46,727 nucleotides of DNA from Chitinophagales bacterium (GTDB lineage: Bacteria > Bacteroidota > Bacteroidia > Chitinophagales > CAIODY01): NCBI GenBank assembly GCA_026461075.1, contig JAPJNH010000053.1:1-46727 (forward strand), in the 5' to 3' direction. Position numbers and translations under genes: made by a program. This document shows positions 1,588 to 32,987 of the stretch, piece by piece (position 1 is the first letter of the stretch; each line of letters starts with the position of its first letter). The notes beneath the pieces were generated by a model, which was not told the DNA's origin, made no database searches, and saw nothing but the letters and a program-made list of their open reading frames with translations.

Positions 1588-1595
1588 TATCTTTG
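1588..1595 (+). promoter_or_regulatory. -7 promoter box of the TonB / secreted protein / PorV unit
   Basis: TATCTTTG is a perfect TAnnTTTG element placed directly after the stop codon of the dehydrogenase and 24 bases before the ATG at 1620. Its last three bases form the in-frame TTG at 1593 that would otherwise look like an upstream start codon. Confidence 0.7.
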
Positions 1596-1619
1596 GCAAC
1601 CTATAATCTATCTTTTCGT

Positions 1620-4600
1620 ATGGCCTTATCTAACTCTATTTTCAAGCGCCTGTTGCTATTAGCAATATTCGTGACTGTCGGATTCGCTGCGTTCGCTCAA
1701 AAAGGTTCTATCACCGGTACTGTATTAGATGCAGCTACTGGTAAGCCATTAGACTTTGCCTCTGTAATGGTATTACAAGAAGGCTTGTTGAAAGGTGGTA
1801 ACTACACTGAGACTGACGGTAGCTTTATTGTTAAGCCTTTGGATCCAGGTTCTGGTTACACCGTTGTCATTACCTTCACTGGTTATGATACAATCAAACA
1901 ATCAGGTATCCTAGTGTCTGCCGATCACGAAACACGTTTAGGTGATTTGAAAATGTCAAAGCCTACTGCTGGTGGTAAAAGCCTCGGTACTGTAAATATC
2001 GTTTACACACGTAAAGCGGTTGACCCCGATCATACGGAAGATAAAAAGGTGGTTTCTCGTGAAGAGATTAAGCAAATGGCCGTTCGTGGCGTAAGTGATA
2101 TTGCTGCTGCTGGTACAGCGGGTACTTACCAAAAAGATGGTGGTTCTGGTATCTCCATCAAAGGTGGTCGTGATAATGCAACGCGTGTTATCGTCGATGG
2201 TATTCCGCAACGTGCGGGTATTGGTCTACCACAAGGGGCCTTAGAAGCCGTTGAAATTGTAACTGGTGGTATCCCTGCGAAATATGGTGATGCGATTGGA
2301 GGTATCATCAACGTTACCACTCGTGGCGCCTCTAAGAAATTCTCAGGTGGAGCGGAATTAGGAACTTCTAAATTCTTGGATCCTTATGGATTCTATCTTG
2401 CTTCATTAAACTTGAACGGACCTTTATTGTTCGATAAAAGAGATCCAAACGCAAAAGATCGTAAGCCTTTAGTTGGTTACAACTTGTCAATGGAATATCA
2501 ACACGACAAGGATCCTAACCCATCTGCAATTGGAATGTGGAAGGTGAAAGACACCATCCTAGAAAAAATTCAAAAAGCTCCGCTTTTGTTGAACCCTCAA
2601 ACTGGTCTTGGATATGTTCGTAGCGCAGATACCCTTTCTTACTATTCAATGGAGAAAATTGCCTACAAACAAAACTCTGCGAATGATGCAGCACGTATCG
2701 CTGGTAAATTAGATTTTAACGTGAAGCCAGGTTTGATTCTTGCTGTAGGTGCAAATGCATCCTTTACACGTTATCATCAATACATTCGTGAATACGCATT
2801 ATTCAATCCTGAGAACAACCCGGAAGTACGTGATTTCTCATGGCGTGTATTCGCTCGTATGACTCAAAAATTGGGTCAGCAAACTTCTGATCGTTTAGAT
2901 GCTGCTGGAAACAAAACACGTAGCACCTCTCCAATTCAGAACGCTTACTATACTTTACAATTCGACTATTCTCAAGATAACCACAAACGTTGGGATGATT
3001 CTCATCGCTTCAATGCATTCAACTATGGTTATGTTGGAAAATTCGAAACAAGAACACAACGTGTTTATATCGACTCCGTTTCAGCAGAAACAGGACAAGT
3101 ATTCAAAGTGCAAGGTTTGGATCGTGACACCTTAGTGGTTTTCACTCCTAGCTCAGTCAATCAAACATTGAGTAACTACACTGATCAATACATGGGTATT
3201 GTTGGTGATTCACGTTCAAACATGTTCAACTCAAGTTTGGATAATATCATGTTCTTTGGTGCGATGGTGAATGGCCGTCGTCCAGGTGATGTCAACAGCT
3301 TGTGGTACAACACGGGTCGTCAATATGCTGGTTATGATTACTACCAAAACCAACAGATTCGTGTAATGGTAGACGGTTCGCTTGACTTAAAAATCAAGGG
3401 TGCAAGAAAACCGCATGCAATTGAATTCGGTATGGTATACGAACAACGTATCGACCGTGCATATAGCCTTAGCGCATCAAGTTTGTGGACACAAATGCGT
3501 TTGTTAGCAAATCGTCAATTGGCTTCTTTAGATAAGAGCAATCCTCATTATGTAATGGCAAACGGAGTATTCCAAGATACCATTAACTACGATCGTCTTT
3601 ATATCGCTAAGGATCAAACAACCTTCGATAAAAATTTACGTCAATCACTTGGATTAGCGGTTGATAGCAAGGATATCATTGATATTGATGCTTTGGATCC
3701 TTCACAGTTCGCTTTAAATATGTTTGCTCCTGATGAGTTATTAAATCAAGGTAATTCATTAGTGTCTTATTATGGTTATACCTATACTGGAGAAAAATTA
3801 AAAGGAAACGTTTCTTTCAACGACTTCTTTACAAAGAAAGAGAATGGAATTTATAAGCGTGAAATTGGTGCTTTCCGTCCAATTTATAATTCTGCATACA
3901 TCCAAGATCGTTTCTCTTTCCGTGATTTGATATTCAATGTCGGTTTGCGTGTAGATCGTTTCGATGCGAATACGAAAGTATTGAAAGATCCATATTCACT
4001 TTACTCCATTCGCAGTGCAGGTGAAGTTGAAGGTTCTCAAAACACAATCAATGGCGGTTCTCACCCTGAGAATATCGGTTCTGATTATGCTGTTTATGTT
4101 GACGACTTCTCTGATCCTAAATCGGCTAACGTTATCGGTTATCGTAATGGCGATAAGTGGTACGATGCAAAGGGTGTTGAATTAAGTGATCCTAGCATTT
4201 TGGCTAAGATGTCTGCTACTAATTCAATTTCTCCATTCTTAAGCAATCCAAAAGATAAGATTACGGATTCATTGTTCGATCCAACTTCTTCATTCAAAGA
4301 TTACGATCCGCAAATTACGATCATGCCGCGTATCTCTTTCTCTTTCCCTATCAATGATGGGCAAGCGTTATTCTTCGCGCACTATGATGTATTAGCTCAA
4401 CGTCCTCAGTCTCGTAGCTACATCACGCCTGATGATTATTTGTATTTCGAAAATATCGTTGTAGACGCTACCTTGAACAACCCGAATTTGAAGCCAGAGA
4501 AGACCATCGATTATCAAATCGGTTTCCAACAAGAGGTTTCTAAAACAGCGGCTTTGAAATTGTCTACGTTCTATCGTGAATACAAAGACATGATTCAAAT

Positions 4601-5405
4601 TATGCGTGTCGTTCAAGCGTATCCTAAATCATATCGTACGTTTGGTAATCGTGACTTCGCAACTGTAAAAGGTTTTGAATTGTCTTACGATCAACAAAAA
4701 ACGGATAACCTTCGTTTCAACGCAGCGTATACTTTGTCTTTTGCAGATGGTACAGGTTCGAACGACGTTTCACAAGCAAACATGATCAACAACGGTATGC
4801 CTAACTTGCGTACCATCTATCCATTAGCTTACGACGTTCGTCATACTTTCTCAGGAAACATCGACTATCGTTATGGTGAAGGAAAGAACTATAATGGTCC
4901 ACGTTTGAAAATCCGTGGCAAATCATACAATATCTTCGAAAACGCTGGTATCAACTTGATTGGTCGTGCTCGTTCAGGTGAGCCTTATACTCGTCAAGGT
5001 CGTGCTCGTAACGAAGCTTTGTTATCACCAACAGGAACATTGGTATTGGTAGGAACAGTGAATGGTTCTCGTTTACCATGGAACTATAAGTTCGATTTGC
5101 GTATCGACAAAAACTTTACTTTGAATGGTGCAACTAAAACAGAAGGCAAAGCTAAAAAGCCATTGTTCTTGAATGCATACTTAACGGTTACCAACTTGTT
5201 GAACACGAAGAATATTCAATCGGTTTATAACTATACTGGCAACCCGAATGATGATGGTTATTTAGGAAGTCCTGGTGCTGCATCTCAGATTGCGGCTCAA
5301 ACTTCGCCTCAAGCTTTCATCGATCAGTATAATATCAAAGTGAATAATCCAGACAACTATAGCTTACCACGTCGTATTCGTGTAGGTGTTGTGTTTAACT
5401 TCTAA
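1620..5405 (+). CDS. Large TonB-dependent outer-membrane receptor with N-terminal CarboxypepD_reg-like domain
   Basis: A 1261-residue outer-membrane receptor. A signal peptide (cleavage near AFAQ, residue 27) is followed by a carboxypeptidase-regulatory-like beta domain (about 28-110), a plug domain (about 140-235, with the VEIVTGGIPAKYGDAIGG block) and a long 22-strand barrel ending in the aromatic terminus VVFNF. Substrate is not predictable; the SusC-like length and N-terminal domain are usual for Bacteroidota. I start it at the ATG at 1620 because the in-frame TTG at 1593 is part of a promoter box. No SusD-like gene follows. Instead a secreted giant and a PorV-type porin do, with gaps of 26 and 22 bases, so the three form one transcription unit. 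Strong preference for CGT and GGT codons suggests high expression. Confidence 0.88.
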   Translation: MALSNSIFKRLLLLAIFVTVGFAAFAQKGSITGTVLDAATGKPLDFASVMVLQEGLLKGGNYTETDGSFIVKPLDPGSGYTVVITFTGYDTIKQSGILVSADHETRLGDLKMSKPTAGGKSLGTVNIVYTRKAVDPDHTEDKKVVSREEIKQMAVRGVSDIAAAGTAGTYQKDGGSGISIKGGRDNATRVIVDGIPQRAGIGLPQGALEAVEIVTGGIPAKYGDAIGGIINVTTRGASKKFSGGAELGTSKFLDPYGFYLASLNLNGPLLFDKRDPNAKDRKPLVGYNLSMEYQHDKDPNPSAIGMWKVKDTILEKIQKAPLLLNPQTGLGYVRSADTLSYYSMEKIAYKQNSANDAARIAGKLDFNVKPGLILAVGANASFTRYHQYIREYALFNPENNPEVRDFSWRVFARMTQKLGQQTSDRLDAAGNKTRSTSPIQNAYYTLQFDYSQDNHKRWDDSHRFNAFNYGYVGKFETRTQRVYIDSVSAETGQVFKVQGLDRDTLVVFTPSSVNQTLSNYTDQYMGIVGDSRSNMFNSSLDNIMFFGAMVNGRRPGDVNSLWYNTGRQYAGYDYYQNQQIRVMVDGSLDLKIKGARKPHAIEFGMVYEQRIDRAYSLSASSLWTQMRLLANRQLASLDKSNPHYVMANGVFQDTINYDRLYIAKDQTTFDKNLRQSLGLAVDSKDIIDIDALDPSQFALNMFAPDELLNQGNSLVSYYGYTYTGEKLKGNVSFNDFFTKKENGIYKREIGAFRPIYNSAYIQDRFSFRDLIFNVGLRVDRFDANTKVLKDPYSLYSIRSAGEVEGSQNTINGGSHPENIGSDYAVYVDDFSDPKSANVIGYRNGDKWYDAKGVELSDPSILAKMSATNSISPFLSNPKDKITDSLFDPTSSFKDYDPQITIMPRISFSFPINDGQALFFAHYDVLAQRPQSRSYITPDDYLYFENIVVDATLNNPNLKPEKTIDYQIGFQQEVSKTAALKLSTFYREYKDMIQIMRVVQAYPKSYRTFGNRDFATVKGFELSYDQQKTDNLRFNAAYTLSFADGTGSNDVSQANMINNGMPNLRTIYPLAYDVRHTFSGNIDYRYGEGKNYNGPRLKIRGKSYNIFENAGINLIGRARSGEPYTRQGRARNEALLSPTGTLVLVGTVNGSRLPWNYKFDLRIDKNFTLNGATKTEGKAKKPLFLNAYLTVTNLLNTKNIQSVYNYTGNPNDDGYLGSPGAASQIAAQTSPQAFIDQYNIKVNNPDNYSLPRRIRVGVVFNF

Positions 5406-5431
5406 AATTGCAAACCATCAACGTTAGATAT

Positions 5432-8400
5432 ATGAAGAGAATAGCTAAATTTTTGTGGTTGACGCTTTTAGTAGCAGGAGTTGCTACAGCGTCTAAGGCC
5501 GATCAGATTCATGGTATGAAACCTAGTCGTCCTGTAAACACTAAGGCATCTGCCTGTGCATCTGCAACAGCGCAAATTGATTTGGACATCAACAACGTTC
5601 GTGCATTGATCATGAATGGTGGTGATATGTGGTGGGATCGTGGCTTGCAGGTAGCTCGTTACGAAGTTCCAAAAATTGATCCGCCAGGATCTGCTCAATC
5701 AGTAAGCTCTTTATTTGCGGCTTCAATTTGGGTAGGTGGTATCGATAACGCGGGTAACTTACGTGTTGCCGCTCAAACGTATCGTCAAGGTGGTAATGAC
5801 TACTATCCTGGTCCTTTGGATGCAACAGGAACGGTAGATCAACAAACTTGTACAAACTACGATCGTTTTTGGAAGTTGAATTTGACGGATATCCAAACGT
5901 ACAAAGCATTAGGTACTAAAACTGTTTCTAATGTTCCTAAAGCAATTTTGGAATGGCCAGCTAAAGGCAATCCTTATGCGGTTGGTACTAACAGCACTTC
6001 CTTAGTGATCAATGATCAATTGGCTCCTTTCTTTGACGTAGACAATGATCAAAACTATGATCCGTTATCAGGAGATTATCCTGCATTCGACCCTACAGAT
6101 ACTACTGTTATGCCTGACCAAATGATTTGGTGGGTATATAATGATAAAGGAAACATTCACACAGAAACAACAGCTGATCCTATCGGCTTACAAGTAAATG
6201 CTACAGCGTTTGCTTATTCTACGAATGATGATATTAATAACATGACGTTCTATCGTTATGATTTATTCAACAAGGGTAACTATACTTTGGATAGTGCCTT
6301 CATCGCTCAATGGGTTGATCCAGACTTAGGTTGTGCGAATGATGACTATATTGGTTGTGATACTTCAGGAACTGCTATGGGTAGCGGTACAGGATTAGGT
6401 ATTTGTTATAATGCGGATGCATTTGATGAAGCTTGTCCTGCAGGTTACTTAAGCAATGTACCTATGGTTGGTATCGACTTCTTCCAAGGTCCGAAAAATG
6501 CGCAAGGTAAAGTTTTAGGAATGACTGGTTTCTACTACTATTACAATACCACTCCTTCTACACAGGCGGATCCTCAAAACGCGGTTCAGTTCTACGGTTA
6601 TATGACAGGTACTTGGCGTGATGGTACAGCCTTCACTTACGGAGGTAATGCCCACCTTGGTGCTTCAACAACACATTTCGTTTATGCAGATGCGCCAAAC
6701 TTGACAGGTACAAAACCTGGTTCTGGTTTGCCTTATTGGTCAATGTGTAACCCTACGGTTACTCCAGGTGACTTGCGTGTAGTTGAATCTTCTGGTCCAT
6801 TCCAATTGATTCCTGGTGCAAAACAAACGGTTACTGTCGGTGTGGTTTGGGTTCGTCCAATCCAATACCCTTGTCCTTCTTTCGCTGCTATCTTGAATGC
6901 AGATCGTAAAGCGCAAGGTTTGTTTGATGCGAACTTCCGTATCTTAAATGGTCCTGATGCTCCGGATATGTCTGTTAAAGAATACGACAAGCAATTGGTT
7001 ATTACATTGTCAAACCCTGCTTCTTCAAATAACTATGGAGAGAAGTATACGGAGTTTGATAATACGATTTTGCCTTATGTTGCCGCAAACCCTGCAGCAC
7101 CAACACATCAAGATACTTTAGATGCATCTTATCGTTTTGAAGGATATCAAATTTTCCAGTTGAAAGACAATACTATTTCAGCTGCTGAATTACATGATAT
7201 GAGTAAGGCACGTGAGATTGCGCAAGTAGATATCAAAAATGGTATTACAAAGATTGTGAATTTCACTAAAGACCTTAACATGAACGCAAACGTTCCTACA
7301 TTGGAAGTGAGCGGTTCAGATCAAGGAATCAAGCATAGTTTCGTAGTTAATACGGATGCCTTTGCTACAGGTAATACAGATTTGATTAATCATAAGACGT
7401 ATTACTACATGGTTATTGCGTATTCTCACAATAACTACAAGCAATTCTCTGACGCAGATCCTACTTCTCAAGATGATCCTTATAAGCCATCTCGTCGTCG
7501 TGTTCGCGTGTACAGTGCAATTCCTCACATTGTTGATCCAGAAATGGGTGGTACTGTATTGAATTCTAAGTATGGCGATCAACCAATTATCACTCGTGTT
7601 GAGGGATATGGTAATGGCGGTAACTTCTTGAACTTGTCTCAAACATCAATTGACAAGATCATGAAAGATAACTTTGCGGATCGTTTGGTTTATGATACTC
7701 TTGGTGGACCAGTAAACGTGATGGTTACAGATCCTAAGAACGTTAAGCCTTATAAGTATAATTTGTATTTGATCGACTCAGTAGAAACTCCAATCGTTCC
7801 AAACAAGAAGGATAGTTTGATTGCTACTGCTTATTGGAAGTTGGTGAATACAAGTACAGGTGAGGTTCGTTATTCAGAAACAGATATGCAATTAGCGAAT
7901 GAGCAAATCTTCGATGATTGGGGCTTCTCTGTGAACGTAAAACAAATTGCTTATGCGGGAACTAAGTTCAGTACTGGTTCTGGTTCTTTTGTAAACATGG
8001 CAGAAAAGAACGGCTTTATTGGATCTGAAGTTAAGTTCGATGTAACGAAGATTTGGTATGGTGGAGTTCCTGATCAAGATGGAGATAATGAAATGAACTG
8101 GATTCGTTCAGGTACTTATAAATCTTCAGCAAGCGCATCATGGTCTGACTATGATATGGCTTCATCTAATCCGGTGGATAAAGACGCAGATTATGAAAAG
8201 GTGGTTGATGGAACTTGGGCTCCTTACCGTTTGTGCGCGCAACAAAATGCGTTCCCAACGAGTGGTGCTGATTTGTCTGCTGCAATTTTACCAGCATATG
8301 ACGCAACTTCTGTAAACTCAAATGCTCATAAGTTAAATAACTTACCAAGTGTTGATATTGTATTTACAAGTGATAAGTCAAAATGGACGCGTTGCGTGGT

Positions 8401-9424
8401 AGTAGAAACAGATCCTGATCCGGTACGTGTTGGTTTTACGAATGGATTGAAATTGCAAGCACGTTCTCACGATAGCTGGGTTTCTCCTAGCGATTTGAAT
8501 GCGGATGGTTCTCCTAAGTATACTGCAGAATCCATTCAACATCCTTCAGGTTTGTCATGGTTCCCTGGTTATGCCATCAACTTGGAGACTGGTGAGCGTT
8601 TGGATATTATGTTCGGTGAAGATTCATGGTTGTTGAGTGATAATGGTAATGACATGTTATGGAATCCAACCTCAACCATGTTTGGTAAAACAGGTGAAGC
8701 GAAATATGGCGGACGTCATTACATCTACGTGATGAATCATCGTTATGCATATAACGGAGATGATCAAGATGGTAACCCTGCGACGAACTCTCCAGTAGCT
8801 TACTTAACCAACTTAAAGTCAGGTAATGCAAATATCATTCGTACCGTTTATGAAGATGCACAATGGGTGAATGTTCCATTAGCAATTTCGGCGTTCGGTA
8901 TTAATTTAAAATCTGCAAGAGAAGGTATTATTCCTTCAGATGTGACGGTTAAGTTGCGTGTTGCAAAGCCTTACGGCAAGTATACCACTTTGTTGAATGA
9001 TGAGCATCCTAACTATCCTTTATATTCATTTGATATGGGAGATTTAGCTGCGAAAAAGAATGATACTTTACAAGCTAAGTCAGCGCTTGATTTGGTGAAT
9101 GTAGTGCCGAATCCTTATTATGCCTATTCAAATTATGAGACAAGTCAAATCGATACACGCGTAAAGATTACCAACTTACCTCCTAAGTGTACTGTGACTA
9201 TTTACTCGGTAGATGGAACGATGATTCGTCAGTACAAGCGTGATAATGATTCGGAGACCTTCTTGGATTGGGATTTGAAGAACAGTGCGAATATCCCTGT
9301 ATCTAGTGGATTATACTTAATACATATCTCTGCACAAGGTTTAGGTGATAAAGGAAATGCTCCTGCACAGCGTGTCATCAAATGGTTTGGTGTTATGCGT
9401 CCAATTGATTTAAATACTTTCTAA
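5432..9424 (+). CDS. Large secreted protein with C-terminal type IX-like sorting domain
   Basis: A 1330-residue exported protein of unknown activity. It starts at the ATG at 5432 (MKRIAKFLWL...), which gives a clean signal peptide ending near KADQ; an in-frame TTG at 5408 is not needed. The N-terminal section (about 35-100) has a conserved-looking block with NNVRALIMNGGDMWW and SSLFAASIWVGG, which I recall from abundant Bacteroidota surface proteins. The middle is rich in Asp, Asn, Tyr and Gly and looks beta-structured. The last 100 residues resemble a T9SS type A sorting domain: VVPNPYY, then VTIYSVDGTMIRQY, then SSGLYLIHI. It lies between a TonB receptor and a PorV-family porin, so it is probably exported by type IX secretion and held at the surface. 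No catalytic motif was recognised. Confidence 0.75.
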   Translation: MKRIAKFLWLTLLVAGVATASKADQIHGMKPSRPVNTKASACASATAQIDLDINNVRALIMNGGDMWWDRGLQVARYEVPKIDPPGSAQSVSSLFAASIWVGGIDNAGNLRVAAQTYRQGGNDYYPGPLDATGTVDQQTCTNYDRFWKLNLTDIQTYKALGTKTVSNVPKAILEWPAKGNPYAVGTNSTSLVINDQLAPFFDVDNDQNYDPLSGDYPAFDPTDTTVMPDQMIWWVYNDKGNIHTETTADPIGLQVNATAFAYSTNDDINNMTFYRYDLFNKGNYTLDSAFIAQWVDPDLGCANDDYIGCDTSGTAMGSGTGLGICYNADAFDEACPAGYLSNVPMVGIDFFQGPKNAQGKVLGMTGFYYYYNTTPSTQADPQNAVQFYGYMTGTWRDGTAFTYGGNAHLGASTTHFVYADAPNLTGTKPGSGLPYWSMCNPTVTPGDLRVVESSGPFQLIPGAKQTVTVGVVWVRPIQYPCPSFAAILNADRKAQGLFDANFRILNGPDAPDMSVKEYDKQLVITLSNPASSNNYGEKYTEFDNTILPYVAANPAAPTHQDTLDASYRFEGYQIFQLKDNTISAAELHDMSKAREIAQVDIKNGITKIVNFTKDLNMNANVPTLEVSGSDQGIKHSFVVNTDAFATGNTDLINHKTYYYMVIAYSHNNYKQFSDADPTSQDDPYKPSRRRVRVYSAIPHIVDPEMGGTVLNSKYGDQPIITRVEGYGNGGNFLNLSQTSIDKIMKDNFADRLVYDTLGGPVNVMVTDPKNVKPYKYNLYLIDSVETPIVPNKKDSLIATAYWKLVNTSTGEVRYSETDMQLANEQIFDDWGFSVNVKQIAYAGTKFSTGSGSFVNMAEKNGFIGSEVKFDVTKIWYGGVPDQDGDNEMNWIRSGTYKSSASASWSDYDMASSNPVDKDADYEKVVDGTWAPYRLCAQQNAFPTSGADLSAAILPAYDATSVNSNAHKLNNLPSVDIVFTSDKSKWTRCVVVETDPDPVRVGFTNGLKLQARSHDSWVSPSDLNADGSPKYTAESIQHPSGLSWFPGYAINLETGERLDIMFGEDSWLLSDNGNDMLWNPTSTMFGKTGEAKYGGRHYIYVMNHRYAYNGDDQDGNPATNSPVAYLTNLKSGNANIIRTVYEDAQWVNVPLAISAFGINLKSAREGIIPSDVTVKLRVAKPYGKYTTLLNDEHPNYPLYSFDMGDLAAKKNDTLQAKSALDLVNVVPNPYYAYSNYETSQIDTRVKITNLPPKCTVTIYSVDGTMIRQYKRDNDSETFLDWDLKNSANIPVSSGLYLIHISAQGLGDKGNAPAQRVIKWFGVMRPIDLNTF

Positions 9425-9446
9425 AGAATTCAAACGCACGATCAAT

Positions 9447-10535
9447 ATGAAACTAATTAATAAAATTGCTTTAGGTCTTGCTGTTACAGCTTTAAGTTGT
9501 GTTACAACTGCACAAGCTGGAAATAAGGATCGTACCGGTCAGGCCGGCGCATATGAATTGCTTATCAATCCTTATGCACGTAGCGGAGGATGGAGTGGTT
9601 TGAATACTGCTTGTATCAAGGGTATTGAAGCTTCGCGCATCAACGTAGCAGGTTTGTCTTTCACAGAAAAAACTGAAATCGTTTTCGCACGTAGTAGTTA
9701 CTTAGCGTTGAAAGGTAGCGATATGGCTATTAACAACTTCGGTATCGCTCAACACGTAGGTGGAGAAGATGGCGGTGTTATGGGCTTATCGGTTATGTCA
9801 ATGACTTTCGGTGAAATTCCAATTACAACAACTGAAGTTCCGGATGTGGTGAACGGTGTGACTACTTTAGGTACTTTCAAACCGCAGTTCATGAACATTG
9901 GATTATCGTATGCGAAGAAATTCTCAGACGCGATTCAAGGGGGAATGGGTGTTACGATTATTTCAGAAGCTATTCCGAACGCTAAGGCACAAGGTGTGGC
10001 TTTGGATGCGGGAATTCAATATGTAACAGGACCAAAAGATAATATTCACTTTGGTATTTCATTGCGTAACGTTGGTACGCCAATGCAGTTCCGTGGCGAC
10101 GGTTTGTCTTTTTCTAACATTGCTTTGAATGGTCGTTATTTGTTGACGCAAGAGATGCGTTCACAAACGTTTGAATTACCTTCTTTGTTGAATATCGGAT
10201 TGGCGTATGATTTTTACCCAGTTCCTAAAATGGCAGACGTTCATCGTTTGACAGTTGCTGGTAACTTTACTTCTAATTCATTCACGAAGGATCAATTCGG
10301 TTTAGGAATGGAATACGCTTATCGTAATACCTTGATGGCTCGTGTAGGTTATCGTTACCAACAAGGTGGCTTGAACGTAGAAACGCGTGGCAATGTGTAT
10401 AACGGATTGCGTGCGGGTATTACATTTGAAACGCCTTTGAAAAAGGATGGTCCTGTCTTCGGGTTGGATTATGCTTACGGAGCAACGAATCCGTTCAATG
10501 GTACTCATACCATCGGCGTTCGCTTAGGTTTGTAA
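9447..10535 (+). CDS. PorV/PorQ-family outer-membrane beta-barrel protein
   Basis: A 362-residue protein with a signal peptide (about 1-24, TAQAG) and FadL-like barrel features. The opening INPYARSGGWSGLNTA, the block GLSYAKKFSDAIQGGMGV and the terminal GVRLGL match the PorV/PorQ family of type IX secretion. PorV carries T9SS cargo from the translocon to the attachment complex. This copy lies 22 bases after a gene for a large secreted protein with a sorting-like domain, so it could be a dedicated shuttle for that cargo. That role is inferred from position only. It is the last gene of its unit and a strong terminator follows. It need not be the housekeeping PorV of the cell. Confidence 0.78.
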   Translation: MKLINKIALGLAVTALSCVTTAQAGNKDRTGQAGAYELLINPYARSGGWSGLNTACIKGIEASRINVAGLSFTEKTEIVFARSSYLALKGSDMAINNFGIAQHVGGEDGGVMGLSVMSMTFGEIPITTTEVPDVVNGVTTLGTFKPQFMNIGLSYAKKFSDAIQGGMGVTIISEAIPNAKAQGVALDAGIQYVTGPKDNIHFGISLRNVGTPMQFRGDGLSFSNIALNGRYLLTQEMRSQTFELPSLLNIGLAYDFYPVPKMADVHRLTVAGNFTSNSFTKDQFGLGMEYAYRNTLMARVGYRYQQGGLNVETRGNVYNGLRAGITFETPLKKDGPVFGLDYAYGATNPFNGTHTIGVRLGL

Positions 10536-10558
10536 TTAACAATCAAAATTTATACTAG

Positions 10559-10598
10559 CAGGGTGCTTGTTCGCAAGTACCCTGTTTTCTTTTTTTTA
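10559..10598 (+). terminator. Intrinsic terminator after the PorV-like gene
   Basis: The stem CAGGGTGCTTG (10559-10569) pairs with CAAGTACCCTG (10574-10584) around a TTCG tetraloop, with one G-U pair, and runs into a long T-rich tail to 10598. It closes the 1620-10535 unit and isolates greA downstream. Confidence 0.93.
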
Positions 10599-10617: not shown

Positions 10618-11088
10618 ATGGCTTACATTTATTTGTCGCAAGAAGGAATGGATAATTTGAAAAGCGAGTTGAACGAATTGCGTACTAAGGGACGTCAAGA
10701 AATAGCTCGTCAAATTGCAGAAGCGCGTGATAAAGGGGATTTAAGTGAGAATGCTGAATACGACGCAGCAAAAGAAGCACAAGGTCACCATGAGGCTAAA
10801 ATCGCTAAATTGGAAGACATGTTAGCGAATGCTCGCGTAATGGATACAGCCTCTTTAGATCTTTCAAAAGTGTCTGTCATGTGTAGTGTACGTGTGAAGA
10901 ATTTGAAGATTAAAAAAGAACAAGTATTTCAATTGGTTTCTGAAAAGGAGGCAAACTTGAAAGAAGGTAAAATTTCTGTTAATTCACCGATTGGTAAAGG
11001 TTTGTTAGGTAAGAAAGTAGGTGAGAAAGCTGAAATTACAGTGCCTGCAGGCAACCTAGAATTTCAAATTTTAGAAATCTTCGTTTAA
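10618..11088 (+). CDS. greA: Transcription elongation factor GreA
   Basis: A 156-residue GreA, which stimulates RNA cleavage by backtracked RNA polymerase. The N-terminal coiled coil (about 10-75) carries the acidic tip Asp41 and Glu44 in DLSENAEYDAA, and the C-terminal FKBP-like domain contains SPIGKGLLGKKVGE. The start is the ATG at 10618 (MAYIYLSQEG); the in-frame ATG further upstream lies inside the preceding terminator. The stop is two bases before the HIT gene, so the two are co-transcribed. Confidence 0.95.
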   Translation: MAYIYLSQEGMDNLKSELNELRTKGRQEIARQIAEARDKGDLSENAEYDAAKEAQGHHEAKIAKLEDMLANARVMDTASLDLSKVSVMCSVRVKNLKIKKEQVFQLVSEKEANLKEGKISVNSPIGKGLLGKKVGEKAEITVPAGNLEFQILEIFV

Positions 11089-11090
11089 TT

Positions 11091-11483
11091 ATGCCTAGCA
11101 TTTTTACTCGAATCATTAATAAGGAAATCCCTTGCCATCTCATTGCTGAAAACGAGCAATACATGGCCTTTTTGGATGTGATGCCTTTACGCGAAGGACA
11201 TACCTTAGTTGTTCCGAAGAATGAGGTAGATTACATCTTTGATTTATCTGCCGAAGACTTGGCTGGCTTATTAGAATTCGCTCGTCCGATTGCTAAAGCA
11301 ATTGAAAAAGTAATTCCTTGTCAGCGTGTTGGGTTGAGTGTTATTGGATTAGAAGTTCCGCATACACATCTTCATTTGGTGCCGATTGATACTGCGAATG
11401 ATTTGAATTTTACGCGCAGTAAAATGCCTGCCGACCAGGCTAAGTTAGCAGACACCGCTGCTTTAATTCGTTCACAACTGTAA
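11091..11483 (+). CDS. HIT family nucleotide hydrolase / transferase
   Basis: A 130-residue histidine-triad protein with the signature HTHLHLV at 91-97 (His91, His93, His95), plus LREGHTLVVPK at 34-43. HIT proteins of this branch hydrolyse purine nucleoside phosphoramidates or dinucleotides; the true substrate is unknown. It sits two bases after greA, a pairing I recall from other Bacteroidota genomes, and 16 bases before the TonB receptor gene, so all three may share a transcript. Confidence 0.9.
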   Translation: MPSIFTRIINKEIPCHLIAENEQYMAFLDVMPLREGHTLVVPKNEVDYIFDLSAEDLAGLLEFARPIAKAIEKVIPCQRVGLSVIGLEVPHTHLHLVPIDTANDLNFTRSKMPADQAKLADTAALIRSQL

Positions 11484-11499
11484 GAAAAAATGATTTATA

Positions 11500-13875
11500 A
11501 TGAGGGTTAGAAGCATTCTTATATTTTCGGGAATTCTTTTGACCCTTTTTCTTTTTGGGTCATTAGAAGTCAGTGCACAATCTTGTTTAAAAGGGCGCGT
11601 TGTTTTTAAAAAATTAGAGCTTAAAAAAACAGAAGCTACCTTAAGTAATGAGGTTCCTCCGGCAGATATTTATGCCAACGATTTACAAGTAGGAACGAGC
11701 ATTGATTCATTAGGTCGTTTTCATATTTGCGATATCCCTACCGGAGAACATGTGTTTACTGTTTCAAGTATTGGATACGAAAGTGTTCGTTTCACTTTAA
11801 AAACTCAATTAGATACGAATGTAGAAATTGTTTTAATACAACGTGTATTAGAAACTGCCGAGCTCACGGTAACGGGTATTACGCGTTCAGGAGATGTGAA
11901 GACGAATGCGCAAGCTTTACAAATTATTGATGCGCGCGTTTGGCAGCGTAATACCTCCCAAGGCTTGATACAGCTTTTAGCTAACCAGCCAGGTATTGCT
12001 TCTATTAATACAGGCGCTGCCATCGCGAAGCCTGTCATCAGAGGCTTGGGCTATAATCGTATTGTCACGGTGAGTGATGGGGTGCGACAAGAGGGGCAAC
12101 AATGGGGTGATGAGCATGGAATTGAAATTGATGATTTCGGTATCTCTAAAGTGGAGGTGTTGAAAGGGCCTGGTAGTCTGATGTATGGCAGTGATGCAAT
12201 TGCAGGGGTTATCAATATCATAGATCCATTGCCTGATCGTAAGCAGTTAATACGAGGCAAGGTAATGTTAGGATATCAATCGAATAATGGTCAGCGTAAT
12301 ACGGCTGCGGTATTAAGTGGTGGCAAGAATCGCTGGTCGTATTTAATACGCTCCTCATCAAAGGATGCACATTGTTATCAAAACGCGCGCGATGGTTATG
12401 TGGCGAATAGTGCTTTCAATAGTTCCGCTGCAAAAGCGATTATCACGACCCATCGAAAGTGGGGTTATAGTCAGATTATTTATTCAGGATATCGCATGAA
12501 CTTAGGATTGATTGAAGGGGAGCGCGATAGCCTTGGAAGATTTCTTACGCCGCAAATGGTAAATGGACAGCTCCTTTCGGAGATTAATACAGATAGTGTT
12601 TATCTGTTATATAAATTACAGTATCCACAGCAAGACATCTTACATCAAAAATACGTTTCCAATACGCGCATCTATTTCGGCAAGCGAAATTTAAAGATGG
12701 TCTATGCTTATCAAGAGAATGTACGAAAGGAGATGGCCACAGAATTTCAGCGCAATGCACCCGACTTATGGATGCGACTACGAACAGGGACTTATCAGCT
12801 ACAATTGAATGGCGAAACAACAAAAAAAATGAGTTGGTCGATTGGGAGTAGTGGTATGTTACAAGCGTCTAAGAACTTCGGAGCTGAAGAATTAATTGCT
12901 GATTATCGTTTGCTGGATGCGGGCGTGTATGGATTATTGTATGGCAATTGGAAAAGCTTGTATTGGCAGGGAGGACTTCGTTACGATCATCGTTGGATGG
13001 AGTGGCAATCGAATCAAAAAGAGTTTGGCGGTGTTTCAGGAAGTATAGGAAGCAGTTATCAATTTGCGAAGTCGCATTATGTTAAGGTAAATGTTTCAAA
13101 AGGTTATCGTTCGCCGAACGCTGCTGAGTTGACCAGCAATGGAGTGCATGAAGGTGCCTTACGTTATGAAATTGGTAATGCAAGGCTGAAGCCTGAAAGT
13201 TCTATTCAGACGGATGTTCAGCTTATGTTGAATTGGAGTCATTTTTCTTTGACGAGTTCTTTGTTTCAAAACAACGTACATAATTTTATTTATATCAATC
13301 GGTTGGAGAATTGGAATTTTACTGATTCCAATCTACAAGGGATGCCTGTATTTGAATTCAAAGAGCAAGATGCTATTTTACGTGGCTTTGAGTTGCAATA
13401 CGATTATCATCCACATCCATTGGATTGGTTACATATTGGGCAGAGCCTGTCTTATGTGACAGCTCATTTTGTAGGAGCAACAAATACGGATCAATATTAT
13501 TTACCAAACATTCCGCCGATGCGTTTAGTGAGTAATGTGCAGGCAGAGTTTCCGAAGTTTGGTCATTATTTACAAGACCTAGAATTAGGTGTGAACTATA
13601 TGTATGTTTGGCGTCAAACACAGATATATAGTGCCTTTCAGACTGAGACGAATACAAAGGGCTATGGCTTGTTGAATGCTAAAGTATCTGCGAAAATGAA
13701 TATTCGTTGGTTTGAAAGTTTGGACGTGGTGGTTAGTGGAAATAATTTATTGAATACAGTTTATCAGGATCATTTAAGTCGATTAAAATATGCTCCGTTA
13801 AATACTGCGAATGGTTATAGTGGTGTTTGGAATATGGGGAGGAATATATCGGTTCAGGTAATGATAGGGATATAA
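11500..13875 (+). CDS. TonB-dependent outer-membrane receptor (metal or metal-complex uptake likely)
   Basis: A 791-residue receptor with a signal peptide (about 1-27, VSAQS), a carboxypeptidase-regulatory-like domain (about 30-110), a plug domain (about 125-240) and a barrel. The plug holds PVIRGLGYNRI, a WGDEHGIEID stretch and VEVLKGPGSLMYGSDAIAG, a TonB plug pattern seen in Cir/FepA-like and heme or metal receptors. Substrate is a guess: the acidic/His-containing loop hints at a metal, but no operon partner supports it. It follows greA and the HIT gene. Codon use is less biased than in the first receptor, suggesting lower expression. A bidirectional terminator follows. Confidence 0.87.
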   Translation: MRVRSILIFSGILLTLFLFGSLEVSAQSCLKGRVVFKKLELKKTEATLSNEVPPADIYANDLQVGTSIDSLGRFHICDIPTGEHVFTVSSIGYESVRFTLKTQLDTNVEIVLIQRVLETAELTVTGITRSGDVKTNAQALQIIDARVWQRNTSQGLIQLLANQPGIASINTGAAIAKPVIRGLGYNRIVTVSDGVRQEGQQWGDEHGIEIDDFGISKVEVLKGPGSLMYGSDAIAGVINIIDPLPDRKQLIRGKVMLGYQSNNGQRNTAAVLSGGKNRWSYLIRSSSKDAHCYQNARDGYVANSAFNSSAAKAIITTHRKWGYSQIIYSGYRMNLGLIEGERDSLGRFLTPQMVNGQLLSEINTDSVYLLYKLQYPQQDILHQKYVSNTRIYFGKRNLKMVYAYQENVRKEMATEFQRNAPDLWMRLRTGTYQLQLNGETTKKMSWSIGSSGMLQASKNFGAEELIADYRLLDAGVYGLLYGNWKSLYWQGGLRYDHRWMEWQSNQKEFGGVSGSIGSSYQFAKSHYVKVNVSKGYRSPNAAELTSNGVHEGALRYEIGNARLKPESSIQTDVQLMLNWSHFSLTSSLFQNNVHNFIYINRLENWNFTDSNLQGMPVFEFKEQDAILRGFELQYDYHPHPLDWLHIGQSLSYVTAHFVGATNTDQYYLPNIPPMRLVSNVQAEFPKFGHYLQDLELGVNYMYVWRQTQIYSAFQTETNTKGYGLLNAKVSAKMNIRWFESLDVVVSGNNLLNTVYQDHLSRLKYAPLNTANGYSGVWNMGRNISVQVMIGI

Positions 13876-29459: not shown

Positions 29460-30500
29460 ATGACTATGAATCGAACCAATATATTTCGATGCGTTGTGGT
29501 GTTTTTCTTGTTGCTGAGTGGCTATGCTACGCAAGCGCAAGATATACATTTGACGCAGTTTTATCATAACCCAATTTTATTAAATCCTGCTCAAGCGGGA
29601 TTGGCCTGCAACTGGCGTGTAGGGGTTAATTATCGTAGCCAATGGGGCAGTGTAACATCGCCTTACAAAACGACTGCAGCGTATTATGATATTCCGGTTT
29701 ATCTTAACCGTAAGCGTTCTGCGGCACTAGGCTTGGGAGTTGGTATTTTCAATGACGTTGCTTCAAATGTTATCTCTACGATGGAGGTTACGCCAACATT
29801 TGCCTTGCATCTAGGCTTTGGCGAGAACTATCAACAGTACAAATTATCCTTCGGCGCACAACCTGCTTTCCGCCAACGAAAGGTGGATGTAGGTGCTTTA
29901 ACTTGGGAGACCCAATGGGACGGAAATTATATTGACCCATATCGTAACTCTTTCGAAACCAATTTGAACACTGGAACCTCTACTGTTTTCGACATGAATG
30001 CAGGTTTACAGTTTTCTGGGGTTGTGAATGAGCAATTAAGTTTCTATTCTGGATTGGCCTTGTTCCACGTAATGAGTCCTGTAGAGTCTTTCTATAATGG
30101 TTCATCTAATGAATTGAATTCTCGTAAAGTTTTTCATGCAACGGTACGTTATAAGATGAATGAGAATTTGAGTATCATCCCGAACATTTTATACATGGCG
30201 CAGTCAAGAGCGAGCGAGTTTAACTTCGGAGGAGAAGTGAACTACAATGTAAATAATGATGAAGATGGATTAGCCTATTTCGGAGGCGTTTATTATCGTA
30301 TGAAAGATGCGACCCAGTTTATGGTTGGAGGGGAAATGAATCGTTTCCGCGCAGCTATCTCCTATGATGTGAATATGTCTGGTTTACGTTCTGCATCGAA
30401 ATATCGCGGAGGCTTTGAATTTGCGATTATGTACAAGGCGCCGTGTTACTCAACACCGCCACCACCACCGCCGCCATTCTTCGTTTGTCCTCGTTTTTAA
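29460..30500 (+). CDS. PorP/SprF family type IX secretion membrane protein
   Basis: A 346-residue outer-membrane barrel with a signal peptide (about 1-27, TQAQD). The family opening DIHLTQFYHNPILLNPAQAG and NYRSQWGS are the PorP/SprF signature. PorP/SprF proteins anchor or assemble T9SS parts in the outer membrane, often together with a PorE-like OmpA protein, which is the next gene 33 bases downstream. The C-terminus carries a run of seven prolines (30458-30478) and a CPRF end after the last strand, which is unusual for a barrel protein. ATG 29466 is an alternative start. Confidence 0.88.
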   Translation: MTMNRTNIFRCVVVFFLLLSGYATQAQDIHLTQFYHNPILLNPAQAGLACNWRVGVNYRSQWGSVTSPYKTTAAYYDIPVYLNRKRSAALGLGVGIFNDVASNVISTMEVTPTFALHLGFGENYQQYKLSFGAQPAFRQRKVDVGALTWETQWDGNYIDPYRNSFETNLNTGTSTVFDMNAGLQFSGVVNEQLSFYSGLALFHVMSPVESFYNGSSNELNSRKVFHATVRYKMNENLSIIPNILYMAQSRASEFNFGGEVNYNVNNDEDGLAYFGGVYYRMKDATQFMVGGEMNRFRAAISYDVNMSGLRSASKYRGGFEFAIMYKAPCYSTPPPPPPPFFVCPRF

Positions 30501-30533
30501 TAATCATCTATCATCTAATCGAATTCGCTTAAT

Positions 30534-32987
30534 ATGAATCGAATATATACTATTGCATTATTGTTTTTTGCGTTGTTGGCTTCCAATCCAATTTTCGCTC
30601 AAGACGTGCAAGATCCTATGGATATTCCAACAAAACGTAAGTTGGAAATTGCTGATAATTTGGCAAAAATCGGAAGCTATTATAACGCAATCGATTATTA
30701 TAAATCCTACATGAAGGATGAAAAAGATGATGCAGATGTTGCGTTTAAGTTAGCGGATGCTTACCGTAATGCCCGCGACTATGTGAACGCGGAGGAATGG
30801 TATAAGAAGGCATTTGCGATGAATAAGACTGAAAACATGAACGCACAGTTTTTCTATGCACTCATGATGAAATATAATGGCAAGTACGATCAAGCTAAAA
30901 CGTTGTTTGATAAGATCGCGAAGTCGTATAAAGGCGATGAAGAAGATCCAAAGGCTGCCGTTATTAAAATCGCGAAAGAAGAGTCTAAGGGTTGTGAGTT
31001 GGCTTTGAAAATGATCAATAACCCATTAAAGTTGGTGGTAAAGCATCTTGGTAAAAATGTAAACAACCATTACTCTGATTTTGGACCTGCAGCTGTAACA
31101 GATTTGAAAATGATTTATTCCTCTATCAAATCAGATACCGTAGTAGTTGTCGGAGGAACCGATCGCGCTTCCTATGTGTCGCGTATTTATGAGACCTCTC
31201 GCAAAAATAAAAATGGTGCTTGGGGTAAGCCTAAAGAATTTGGGGATGGAAATATTAATAGCAATATGGATCATACCGGTAACGGTAGCTTTAGTCCTGA
31301 CGGTAAATATTTCTTCTTCTCTCGTTGTCGTGAAGTATCTCCAACTGATTTGCACTTGCATTGCGATATTTATTTCTCAGAACGTAAAGGCGAGTCATGG
31401 TCAAGCCCATCACGCTTATCAAGTAATGTAAATAAGGCAGGAACGAATAATACACAGCCTGCTGCTGCTAAGGGAGGGAAGCCAGGTGAAATCATTCTTT
31501 ACTTCGTTTCTGATCGTGAAGAGGGAAGTGCAGGCGGACAAGATTTGTATTATACTACGTTCAAAAAAGACGGCTCATGTACAGCGCCAGTAAATCTTGG
31601 CAAGAAAATTAATACGGCTGGTGACGAGGTAACTCCTTACTATGATGAAAAAGAAAAGACCTTATACTTCTCTTCGAACGGACGTGTAGGCATGGGTGGT
31701 TTTGATATCTTCCGTGTAAAAGGAACTACAAAAAAATTTGAAGATCCTACCAACGTAGGTTATCCAATCAACTCTTCTGTAGACGATCGCTATTTCTCCC
31801 ATTGGCCGAATCATCGTGGTGGCTTCTTCGTATCTAACCGCCCAGGAGGTTATGAATTGAAGAGCGCTACTTGTTGCGATGATATCTATCAATTCGACTA
31901 TATCATCATCCCTCACTTTGCAGTGAAAGGACGCATCTACGATTCTGAAGATAAGAAGAAAAAGAATCCATTATTAACTGCCGTGGTTCAAATCACTTGC
32001 GACTCCGCAGAGAAAGATGCGATGCGTTATGATACTACGTTCTCTCGTAACAAAGCAACGTATATGTTCAACCTTGCACGCAATCAATCGTACAAGATTC
32101 ACGTAACGAAGGATGGCTATTATGCAAACAACGCTACATGTTCGGTGAAAGGGATGGATGAAAGTGATACAATGACAGTAGATATCTTCATCGAGAAGAT
32201 CAAGCCTAAATCAGTGCGTATCGAAGGTATTTATTATGCATACGACCGTGCTGAATTGCAAGCTGAATCTGAACCAGCCTTGAAACAATTGTTGGGGATT
32301 TTGAATGACAATCCTGTGATTAAAGTTGAAATCAGTTCGCATACGGATAACCGCGGTAATGACGCGTATAACATGAAGTTGTCACAAGCGCGTGCGGAAA
32401 GTGTGGTGAAATACTTAATCACAAATGGTATCGATAAACAACGTCTGGTTGCGAAAGGATATGGTGAAACACATCCGGATACGATCAACCAAAATCCAGA
32501 TGGTAGCGACTGTCCTGTATGTCGTGCCCGTAACCGTCGTACCGAATTTAAGATCATTGGTCAGATTGCTAATACAACGATCATTTACGACCAAGCAGCG
32601 CCTATTACAGTAGATTCAGCAACGACTACGCAAGAGGTAGAAGCGCGTGAGAAAGAAGGTAAGGGTGCTAACTTTATTGGCAATCCAACTAACAAACCTG
32701 CCACAGATAACCCTGCTCCGGCAGGTACTGGAACGGGTACTAAAACAACCCCTGCGAAAGCAGCTCCGAAGACCACATCAAGCGAAGACAACGAAGAAGC
32801 TAGTTCTGATGAGTCGAGCGATGATAGCGCTGATGTGGCTCCTGCAACGAATGATGACGAAGACAGTAGCGCTTCTAAGTCGAAGTCGAGCGGCGCCAAA
32901 ACAAAAACAACAACTCCTGCTACTAAATCGACTACTTCCAAGAGCAGTAGTGGTAGCAAGAAAAAAGGATCTGTTGAAGAAGACTAA
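30534..32987 (+). CDS. PorE-like OmpA family protein (TPR, PD40 propeller, carboxypeptidase-regulatory, OmpA_C)
   Basis: An 817-residue exported protein with a signal peptide (1-22, IFAQ). Domain order: TPR-like helices (about 35-135), a WD40-like PD40 propeller (about 190-450, with FSPDGKYFFFSR and TLYFSSNGRVGMGGFDI), a carboxypeptidase-regulatory-like domain (about 460-550), an OmpA peptidoglycan-binding domain (about 570-680, with SSHTDNRGNDAYN and LSQARAESV) and a Thr/Ser/Ala/Lys/Asp-rich tail (about 700-817). The first four match PorE, which ties the type IX machinery to peptidoglycan. PorE is a lipoprotein, whereas this copy has a type I-like signal and an added tail. It follows PorP/SprF and ends at a terminator. 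Confidence 0.85.
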   Translation: MNRIYTIALLFFALLASNPIFAQDVQDPMDIPTKRKLEIADNLAKIGSYYNAIDYYKSYMKDEKDDADVAFKLADAYRNARDYVNAEEWYKKAFAMNKTENMNAQFFYALMMKYNGKYDQAKTLFDKIAKSYKGDEEDPKAAVIKIAKEESKGCELALKMINNPLKLVVKHLGKNVNNHYSDFGPAAVTDLKMIYSSIKSDTVVVVGGTDRASYVSRIYETSRKNKNGAWGKPKEFGDGNINSNMDHTGNGSFSPDGKYFFFSRCREVSPTDLHLHCDIYFSERKGESWSSPSRLSSNVNKAGTNNTQPAAAKGGKPGEIILYFVSDREEGSAGGQDLYYTTFKKDGSCTAPVNLGKKINTAGDEVTPYYDEKEKTLYFSSNGRVGMGGFDIFRVKGTTKKFEDPTNVGYPINSSVDDRYFSHWPNHRGGFFVSNRPGGYELKSATCCDDIYQFDYIIIPHFAVKGRIYDSEDKKKKNPLLTAVVQITCDSAEKDAMRYDTTFSRNKATYMFNLARNQSYKIHVTKDGYYANNATCSVKGMDESDTMTVDIFIEKIKPKSVRIEGIYYAYDRAELQAESEPALKQLLGILNDNPVIKVEISSHTDNRGNDAYNMKLSQARAESVVKYLITNGIDKQRLVAKGYGETHPDTINQNPDGSDCPVCRARNRRTEFKIIGQIANTTIIYDQAAPITVDSATTTQEVEAREKEGKGANFIGNPTNKPATDNPAPAGTGTGTKTTPAKAAPKTTSSEDNEEASSDESSDDSADVAPATNDDEDSSASKSKSSGAKTKTTTPATKSTTSKSSSGSKKKGSVEED

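Follow-up and report, generated by a model that had tools for sequence, protein, structure and literature searches.

What might serve as the surface partner of a TonB-dependent receptor (TBDT) when its gene is followed by genes for a type IX secretion system (T9SS) protein and an outer-membrane barrel? In SusC–SusD and BtuB–BtuG, the partner of the receptor is a surface lipoprotein. The question is raised by a locus near the start of a 46,727-nucleotide stretch of DNA from a Chitinophagales bacterium (contig JAPJNH010000053.1), referred to here as the window.

Organisation of the locus

Open reading frames and profile searches bear out the gene set of the original prediction, namely a 1261-residue TonB receptor, a 1330-residue exported protein (the cargo) and a PorV/PorQ-family barrel (Table 1). 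All three genes of this trio lie on the forward strand, with intergenic gaps of 26 nt between receptor and cargo and 22 nt between cargo and barrel. The first gene product is assigned to the TBDT class by its plug and barrel domains, both above the Pfam cut-offs, and this description is also backed by a consensus across 96 trio receptors. The SusC/RagA signature is absent from the matches of the window receptor (E ≤ 1) and the neighbouring gene encodes a protein with a T9SS-type C-terminal sorting domain (CTD) rather than SusD, so the locus was rejected as a SusC–SusD locus. No relative of the receptor was found in the PDB by phmmer, and no Pfam or NCBIfam family scored above its cut-off in the cargo.

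Table 1. Features of the trio locus, in window coordinates.
Feature	Position	Strand	Details
Candidate −7 promoter element	1588–1595	+	TATCTTTG; Bacteroidota-type; weak, without matching −33
TBDT, trio gene 1	1620–5405	+	ATG start; 1261 aa
Receptor carboxypeptidase-regulatory-like domain (CarboxypepD_reg, PF13620)	1707–1955	+	44.6 bits; cut-off 32.3
Receptor plug domain (PF07715)	2043–2306	+	36.5 bits; cut-off 23.9
Receptor TonB-dependent barrel (PF00593)	3273–4934	+	43.1 bits; cut-off 27
Cargo (exported protein), trio gene 2	5432–9424	+	ATG start; 1330 aa
Cargo N-terminal domain	5546–6976	+	Residues 39–515; better conserved than the rest of the cargo; beta-rich by prediction, distantly supersandwich-like
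Cargo CTD	9077–9421	+	Residues about 1216–1330; type A-like, PorZ/PorU-like
PorV/PorQ-family outer-membrane barrel, trio gene 3	9447–10535	+	362 aa
Intrinsic terminator 3′ of the trio	10557–10586	+	13-pair stem, then TTCTTTTTTT

The −7 promoter element of Bacteroidota is TAnnTTTG, with a TTG expected at about −33. The element TATCTTTG, from which a promoter had been predicted at 1588, is present and agrees with this consensus; it is weak evidence for a promoter, because it lacks the upstream TTG and the same 8-mer occurs 23 times on the forward strand of the window. The terminator, expected at 10559, was recovered and ranks strongest within the first 14 kb of the window.

The proposed CGT/GGT codon bias also holds. 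CGT accounts for 0.87–0.91 of arginine codons in the trio genes; of 13 further genes compared, greA reaches 0.83 and the rest 0.18–0.69. The GGT fraction in the trio genes is 0.55–0.70. Such very strong bias in all three genes suggests abundance. It would suit a reading in which the cargo and its PorV paralogue make up an abundant coat or scaffold on the cell surface; the receptor would be merely co-expressed, without physical complex, because both are required at high level or simultaneously. This coat or scaffold is considered unlikely, though it is the most credible of the alternatives to the preferred account.

The window opens with the end of a 23S rRNA, a 5S rRNA and a 2-hydroxyacid dehydrogenase gene, which are followed by the trio and then by greA and a HIT-family gene (10618–11483). 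Among 99 trios, GreA is encoded downstream in 65 and a HIT protein in 57, as would be expected if the trio had been inherited vertically without changing its place in the chromosome. Downstream of the greA–HIT pair, at 11500–13875, lies the gene for a second TBDT, of the heme/zinc type (TIGR01785/TIGR01786, sub-threshold), which was excluded from the trio because its codon bias is much weaker. Further along the window (29460–32987), the gene for a PorP/SprF-family barrel (TIGR03519, 177.8 bits) is directly followed by that for a PorE-like OmpA protein; this is a known anchoring pair, and no type B CTD cargo adjoins it.

Conservation of the trio across Bacteroidota

Relatives of the locus were gathered by cargo similarity, so cargo-less receptors or barrels of trio type would go unseen; this yielded 120 loci with 124 full-size cargo genes. 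For 101 of the 124, the adjoining genes are a receptor gene on the upstream side and a PorV-family gene on the downstream side, all on one strand. Position by position, a receptor-like gene stands at −1 of the cargo in 86% (0–5% at other flanking positions) and a PorV-like gene at +1 in 85% (0–2.5% at the others), which rules out chance adjacency of independent genes. The original prediction would have been refuted by three families scattered independently across genomes; their adjacency proved strongly conserved. The order holds over cargo homologues down to about 25% identity, and the trio is an old, conserved unit. A second cargo gene directly follows the trio PorV gene in three loci, giving the order receptor–cargo–PorV–cargo (L105, 15512–19621; L113, 15439–19437; L119, 10001–14029).

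Sampling across the phylum recovered the cargo family from 151 of 297 genomes and 99 of 141 genera, some of the weakest of these matches covering the CTD alone. In an even sample of the class, 321 of 395 genomes and 152 of 197 genera carry it at E at most 1e-30. At least 573 cargo relatives were returned when named genomes were scanned. Saprospiraceae, which belong to the same order as the source genome, include the cultured trio carrier Membranihabitans marinus (locus L099). The 80 matches listed include Chitinophagales, Saprospiraceae, Flavobacteriales (Cryomorphaceae, Schleiferiaceae, Fluviicola and Crocinitomix), Bacteroidales, with rumen genomes among them, and others; the nearest relative among the matches listed is a Chitinophagales MAG (locus L071) with a cargo 77% identical to that of the window. 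The cargo is missing from several large families, apparently including, by the names deduced for them, those with the most laboratory strains, and it may have been overlooked owing to this absence.

Tree distances of receptor, cargo body and barrel correlate with r of 0.91–0.94, an agreement partly explained by shared species descent, and the highest value (r 0.94) is that between receptor and cargo body. A coat or scaffold with a bystander receptor would accommodate the cargo paralogues that occur without receptor or barrel, some of them in tandem arrays. It sits poorly with a receptor that is linked to the cargo as tightly as the barrel is, and with receptor and cargo-body trees that agree best. 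In genomes with two trios, the three genes are duplicated together in 3 of 3 informative genome pairs. Paralogue pairing was rejected as proof of co-evolution, since only these three pairs are informative, though all are concordant.

Association with type IX secretion

In a first sample of 56 genomes, SprA was present in all trio genomes and a separate canonical PorV in nearly all. Across the 395 genomes of the class, SprA is present in 318 of the 321 cargo-positive genomes (odds ratio 11, P 5e-4); the three without it are 56–95% complete, and no SprA-negative genome of at least 99% completeness carries the cargo. The source genome encodes the SprA translocon, a canonical PorV and about 100 type A CTDs. 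Export of the cargo by the T9SS is regarded as highly probable.

In Myxococcus, Oar reportedly takes part in TonB-driven export of the protease PopC. By a similar route, the trio receptor would itself export or assemble the cargo with TonB energy, and the T9SS would not be used. The N-terminal carboxypeptidase-regulatory-like domain of the receptor and the tight linkage of the cargo and receptor genes are compatible with such a route, but the CTD of the cargo is of the T9SS type, and the cargo co-occurs with SprA; this co-occurrence makes receptor-driven export very improbable.

The cargo CTD resembles those of PorZ and PorU

The type IX-like sorting domain of the original prediction stands as a type A-like domain at the profile level, while the cut-off of the general model was missed. 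The window cargo scored 20.8 bits against TIGR04183 (cut-off 23) in hmmscan and 24.6 bits in a six-frame search of the source genome, and 12 of 22 cargo family members match this model at E ≤ 0.01. Aligned by hhalign with 27 type A CTDs of the source genome, the cargo CTD profile reached a probability of 96.7% (P 4e-10), and three control segments of the cargo gave about 0. TIGR04131, the type B CTD model, is absent from the matches of the window cargo. A C-terminus unlike either TIGR04183 or TIGR04131 had been named as an outcome that would refute the prediction; the profile-level match speaks for a sorting domain, with the TIGR04183 threshold unreached in hmmscan, and neither of the two refuting outcomes was obtained.

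The NCBIfam model nearest to the cargo CTD is PorZ, matched through the end of its own CTD in 21 of 22 members. Matches to the PorZ and PorU models are confined to the CTD (at best 40.1 bits against a cut-off of 260, and 19.2 against 420), and the cargo was rejected as a full-length PorU or PorZ. In the PDB, the CTD profile matched PorZ (5m11) and PorU (6za2) best. The CTD tail is conserved as KWFGxxRPxDL.

PorU and PorZ retain their CTDs after export (PMC11285876), and are held at the cell surface by PorV and PorQ, respectively (PMC5562754). The resemblance to these two proteins argues against cleavage of the cargo CTD by PorU. It is a pointer rather than proof of non-cleavage, because the extra CTD hairpin common to PorU and PorZ is reported to be functionally not relevant (PMC11285876).

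The neighbouring barrel is a PorV paralogue

The predicted PorV/PorQ-family identity of the trio barrel is confirmed by a score of 129 bits against NF033709 (cut-off 90). Against NF033710, the model of canonical PorV, it scored 51.8 bits and did not reach the cut-off of 250; the canonical PorV of the source genome is encoded elsewhere (460 bits). The barrel also stays below the cut-off of TIGR03519 (PorP/SprF; 23.8 bits against 90.55), and with no TIGR04131 match in the cargo, a type B CTD and PorP/SprF system was rejected. The profile of the trio PorV matches the solved PorV of F. johnsoniae (E 1.4e-23). A tree groups 112 trio barrels apart from 20 canonical PorVs with weak support (0.52); given this value, and with two other paralogues of the source genome falling inside the group, the trio barrels were rejected as a clade of their own.

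The source genome encodes canonical PorV beside PorU, PorV2 beside PorU2, and also PorQ. The two adjacent pairs make the placing of barrels beside the proteins that they hold a pattern within this genome. In the second pair (L229, 1619–7920), the gene for PorV2 (NF052325) immediately precedes that for PorU2, a protein of 1729 aa whose end is CTD-like, and this PorU2 is likely the surface partner of the adjoining PorV2. At another place (L227, 8457–11856), a PorV-family protein of 330 aa (NF033709, 161 bits) is encoded directly downstream of the assembly lipoprotein TamL.

CTD type and the PorV-family gene go together

All 112 cargo family members that adjoin a PorV-family gene carry the trio-type CTD. 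Among members without such a neighbour, the trio-type CTD occurs in 22 and an ordinary type A CTD in 16, so that 0 of 16 ordinary type A relatives adjoin a PorV gene (Fisher 1.6e-11, from counts that lack phylogenetic independence). In nine genomes with both forms, the copy next to the PorV gene is the one with the trio-type CTD, and the copy with the ordinary CTD lies at another place. The 22 orphans mean that adjacency is not strict. It is the CTD, not the cargo body, that tracks the PorV gene, as expected if CTD and PorV bind each other. With this link and the PorZ/PorU resemblance, the role of candidate cargo shuttle proposed for the barrel gains support.

The same evidence bears on a reading of the cargo as an ordinary T9SS substrate, one that the general PorV handles and PorU cuts before it is linked to glycolipid or released, with neighbours that have other tasks. 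Its CTD falls within the type A superfamily and the source genome has both canonical PorV and PorU. Yet the domain resembles the uncleaved ones of PorZ and PorU and is sub-threshold for the general model, and beside the PorV gene it is always the trio-type form that occurs, never the ordinary one. An ordinary, processed substrate is improbable, and the cargo is probably retained by the neighbouring PorV, its predicted anchor.

The cargo body also occurs outside the trio, as orphan and tandem paralogues. Tandem arrays of two to four paralogues (L213, 1070–7149; L214, 1–12004; L212, 6754–16000) have no receptor or PorV gene adjoining, and those of their members that are complete at the C-terminus bear ordinary (or weak) type A CTDs.

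Structure predictions of the cargo body

An AlphaFold2 model of residues 43–1242 of a related cargo (L072), built from a 67-row alignment, reached a pLDDT of 88.8 and a pTM of 0.73. Foldseek matched it to PorZ at the top, and then, with low TM, to beta-supersandwich domains of GH15, GH94 and GH116 enzymes. The N-terminal domain of the window cargo, modelled alone (pLDDT 90.0, pTM 0.90), found the same supersandwich matches as well as amine oxidases, at E of about 1e-5. These models suggest that the domain may be remotely related to supersandwich domains, a hint of fold only, because TM to the query is at most 0.37. A glycan-binding cargo body was not adopted, as the GH15/GH94/GH116-type matches at this TM offer nothing firm on a ligand.

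A proposed surface assembly

It is proposed that the operon makes a single surface assembly that combines T9SS export, PorV anchoring and partnership with the receptor, and the odds on this whole account are put as even. Computation supports the conserved trio, the T9SS association, the CTD type and the link between CTD and PorV gene. The cargo would leave the cell via Sec and then through the SprA translocon of the T9SS. We infer that its CTD, of the PorZ/PorU-like kind, is not cut off after export, and would dock on the adjacently encoded PorV-family barrel, its dedicated partner, at the outer loops. The cargo body, of roughly 140 kDa, would thereby be held non-covalently at the surface, like PorU on PorV and PorZ on PorQ.

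The held cargo would then be the surface partner of the TBDT, probably capturing substrate, and would do for this receptor what SusD-type lipoproteins do for SusC. Anchoring by the barrel is well supported and is graded above this partnership, which we infer from the tight linkage of the genes and the SusCD analogy; a complex of cargo and receptor is given an equal chance of being right or wrong. Uptake is a plausible purpose of the trio, held with slightly less than even confidence. More tentatively still, the trio may represent a third way to give a TBDT a surface partner, in the form of a giant T9SS cargo on its own PorV paralogue instead of a lipoprotein.

Relation to known systems

Uncleaved CTDs on PorV and PorQ, cognate barrels for type B CTDs, and receptor–lipoprotein complexes are already known. 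The PorU–PorV and PorZ–PorQ pairs of the attachment complex share with the trio a barrel-held T9SS protein, whose CTD is uncleaved in those pairs (PMC5562754, PMC11285876), and the trio CTD is closest to those of PorU and PorZ. Unlike these pairs, the trio has a cargo without sortase or PorZ body, a barrel that is neither canonical PorV nor PorQ, and a TBDT in the set.

Type B CTD substrates are encoded in clusters with the cognate PorP/SprF barrels that secrete and anchor them, as in SprB–SprF and PG1035–PorP (PMC9143113, PMC12618676). In the trio, too, a dedicated FadL-like barrel is encoded beside the cargo, but the CTD is type A-like, the barrel belongs to the PorV family and there is no PorE in the operon. 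By analogy, the best-supported account of the trio would be that of a type A-like counterpart to type B cargo on PorP/SprF. For type A CTDs, a single PorV has been described as serving them all (PMC12618676).

With SusC–SusD and BtuB–BtuG, the trio shares a large Bacteroidota TBDT encoded with a dedicated surface partner; it differs in that this partner is a T9SS cargo with a predicted barrel anchor, not a lipoprotein. A literature search found neither a description of the trio nor a type A-like cargo with a PorV paralogue dedicated to it; the search covered few subscription papers, hence both are weak evidence of novelty.

Implications

The trio suggests a surface machine that has escaped study and that model species for the most part lack. 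Its cargo family is widespread in class and phylum although the body matches no Pfam or NCBIfam family. If the proposal is true, type A-like CTDs, described as using one general PorV, would have dedicated barrels, by a route that most of the sampled families of the class possess and those most used as laboratory models lack. It becomes testable whether particular CTDs have PorV paralogues as permanent anchors of their own, in the way that PorP proteins anchor type B cargo, and a ready-made test is offered by the CTD swap that has occurred naturally between paralogues of one genome. For the Bacteroidota that encode the trio, the T9SS may thus be a possible route to building receptor complexes.
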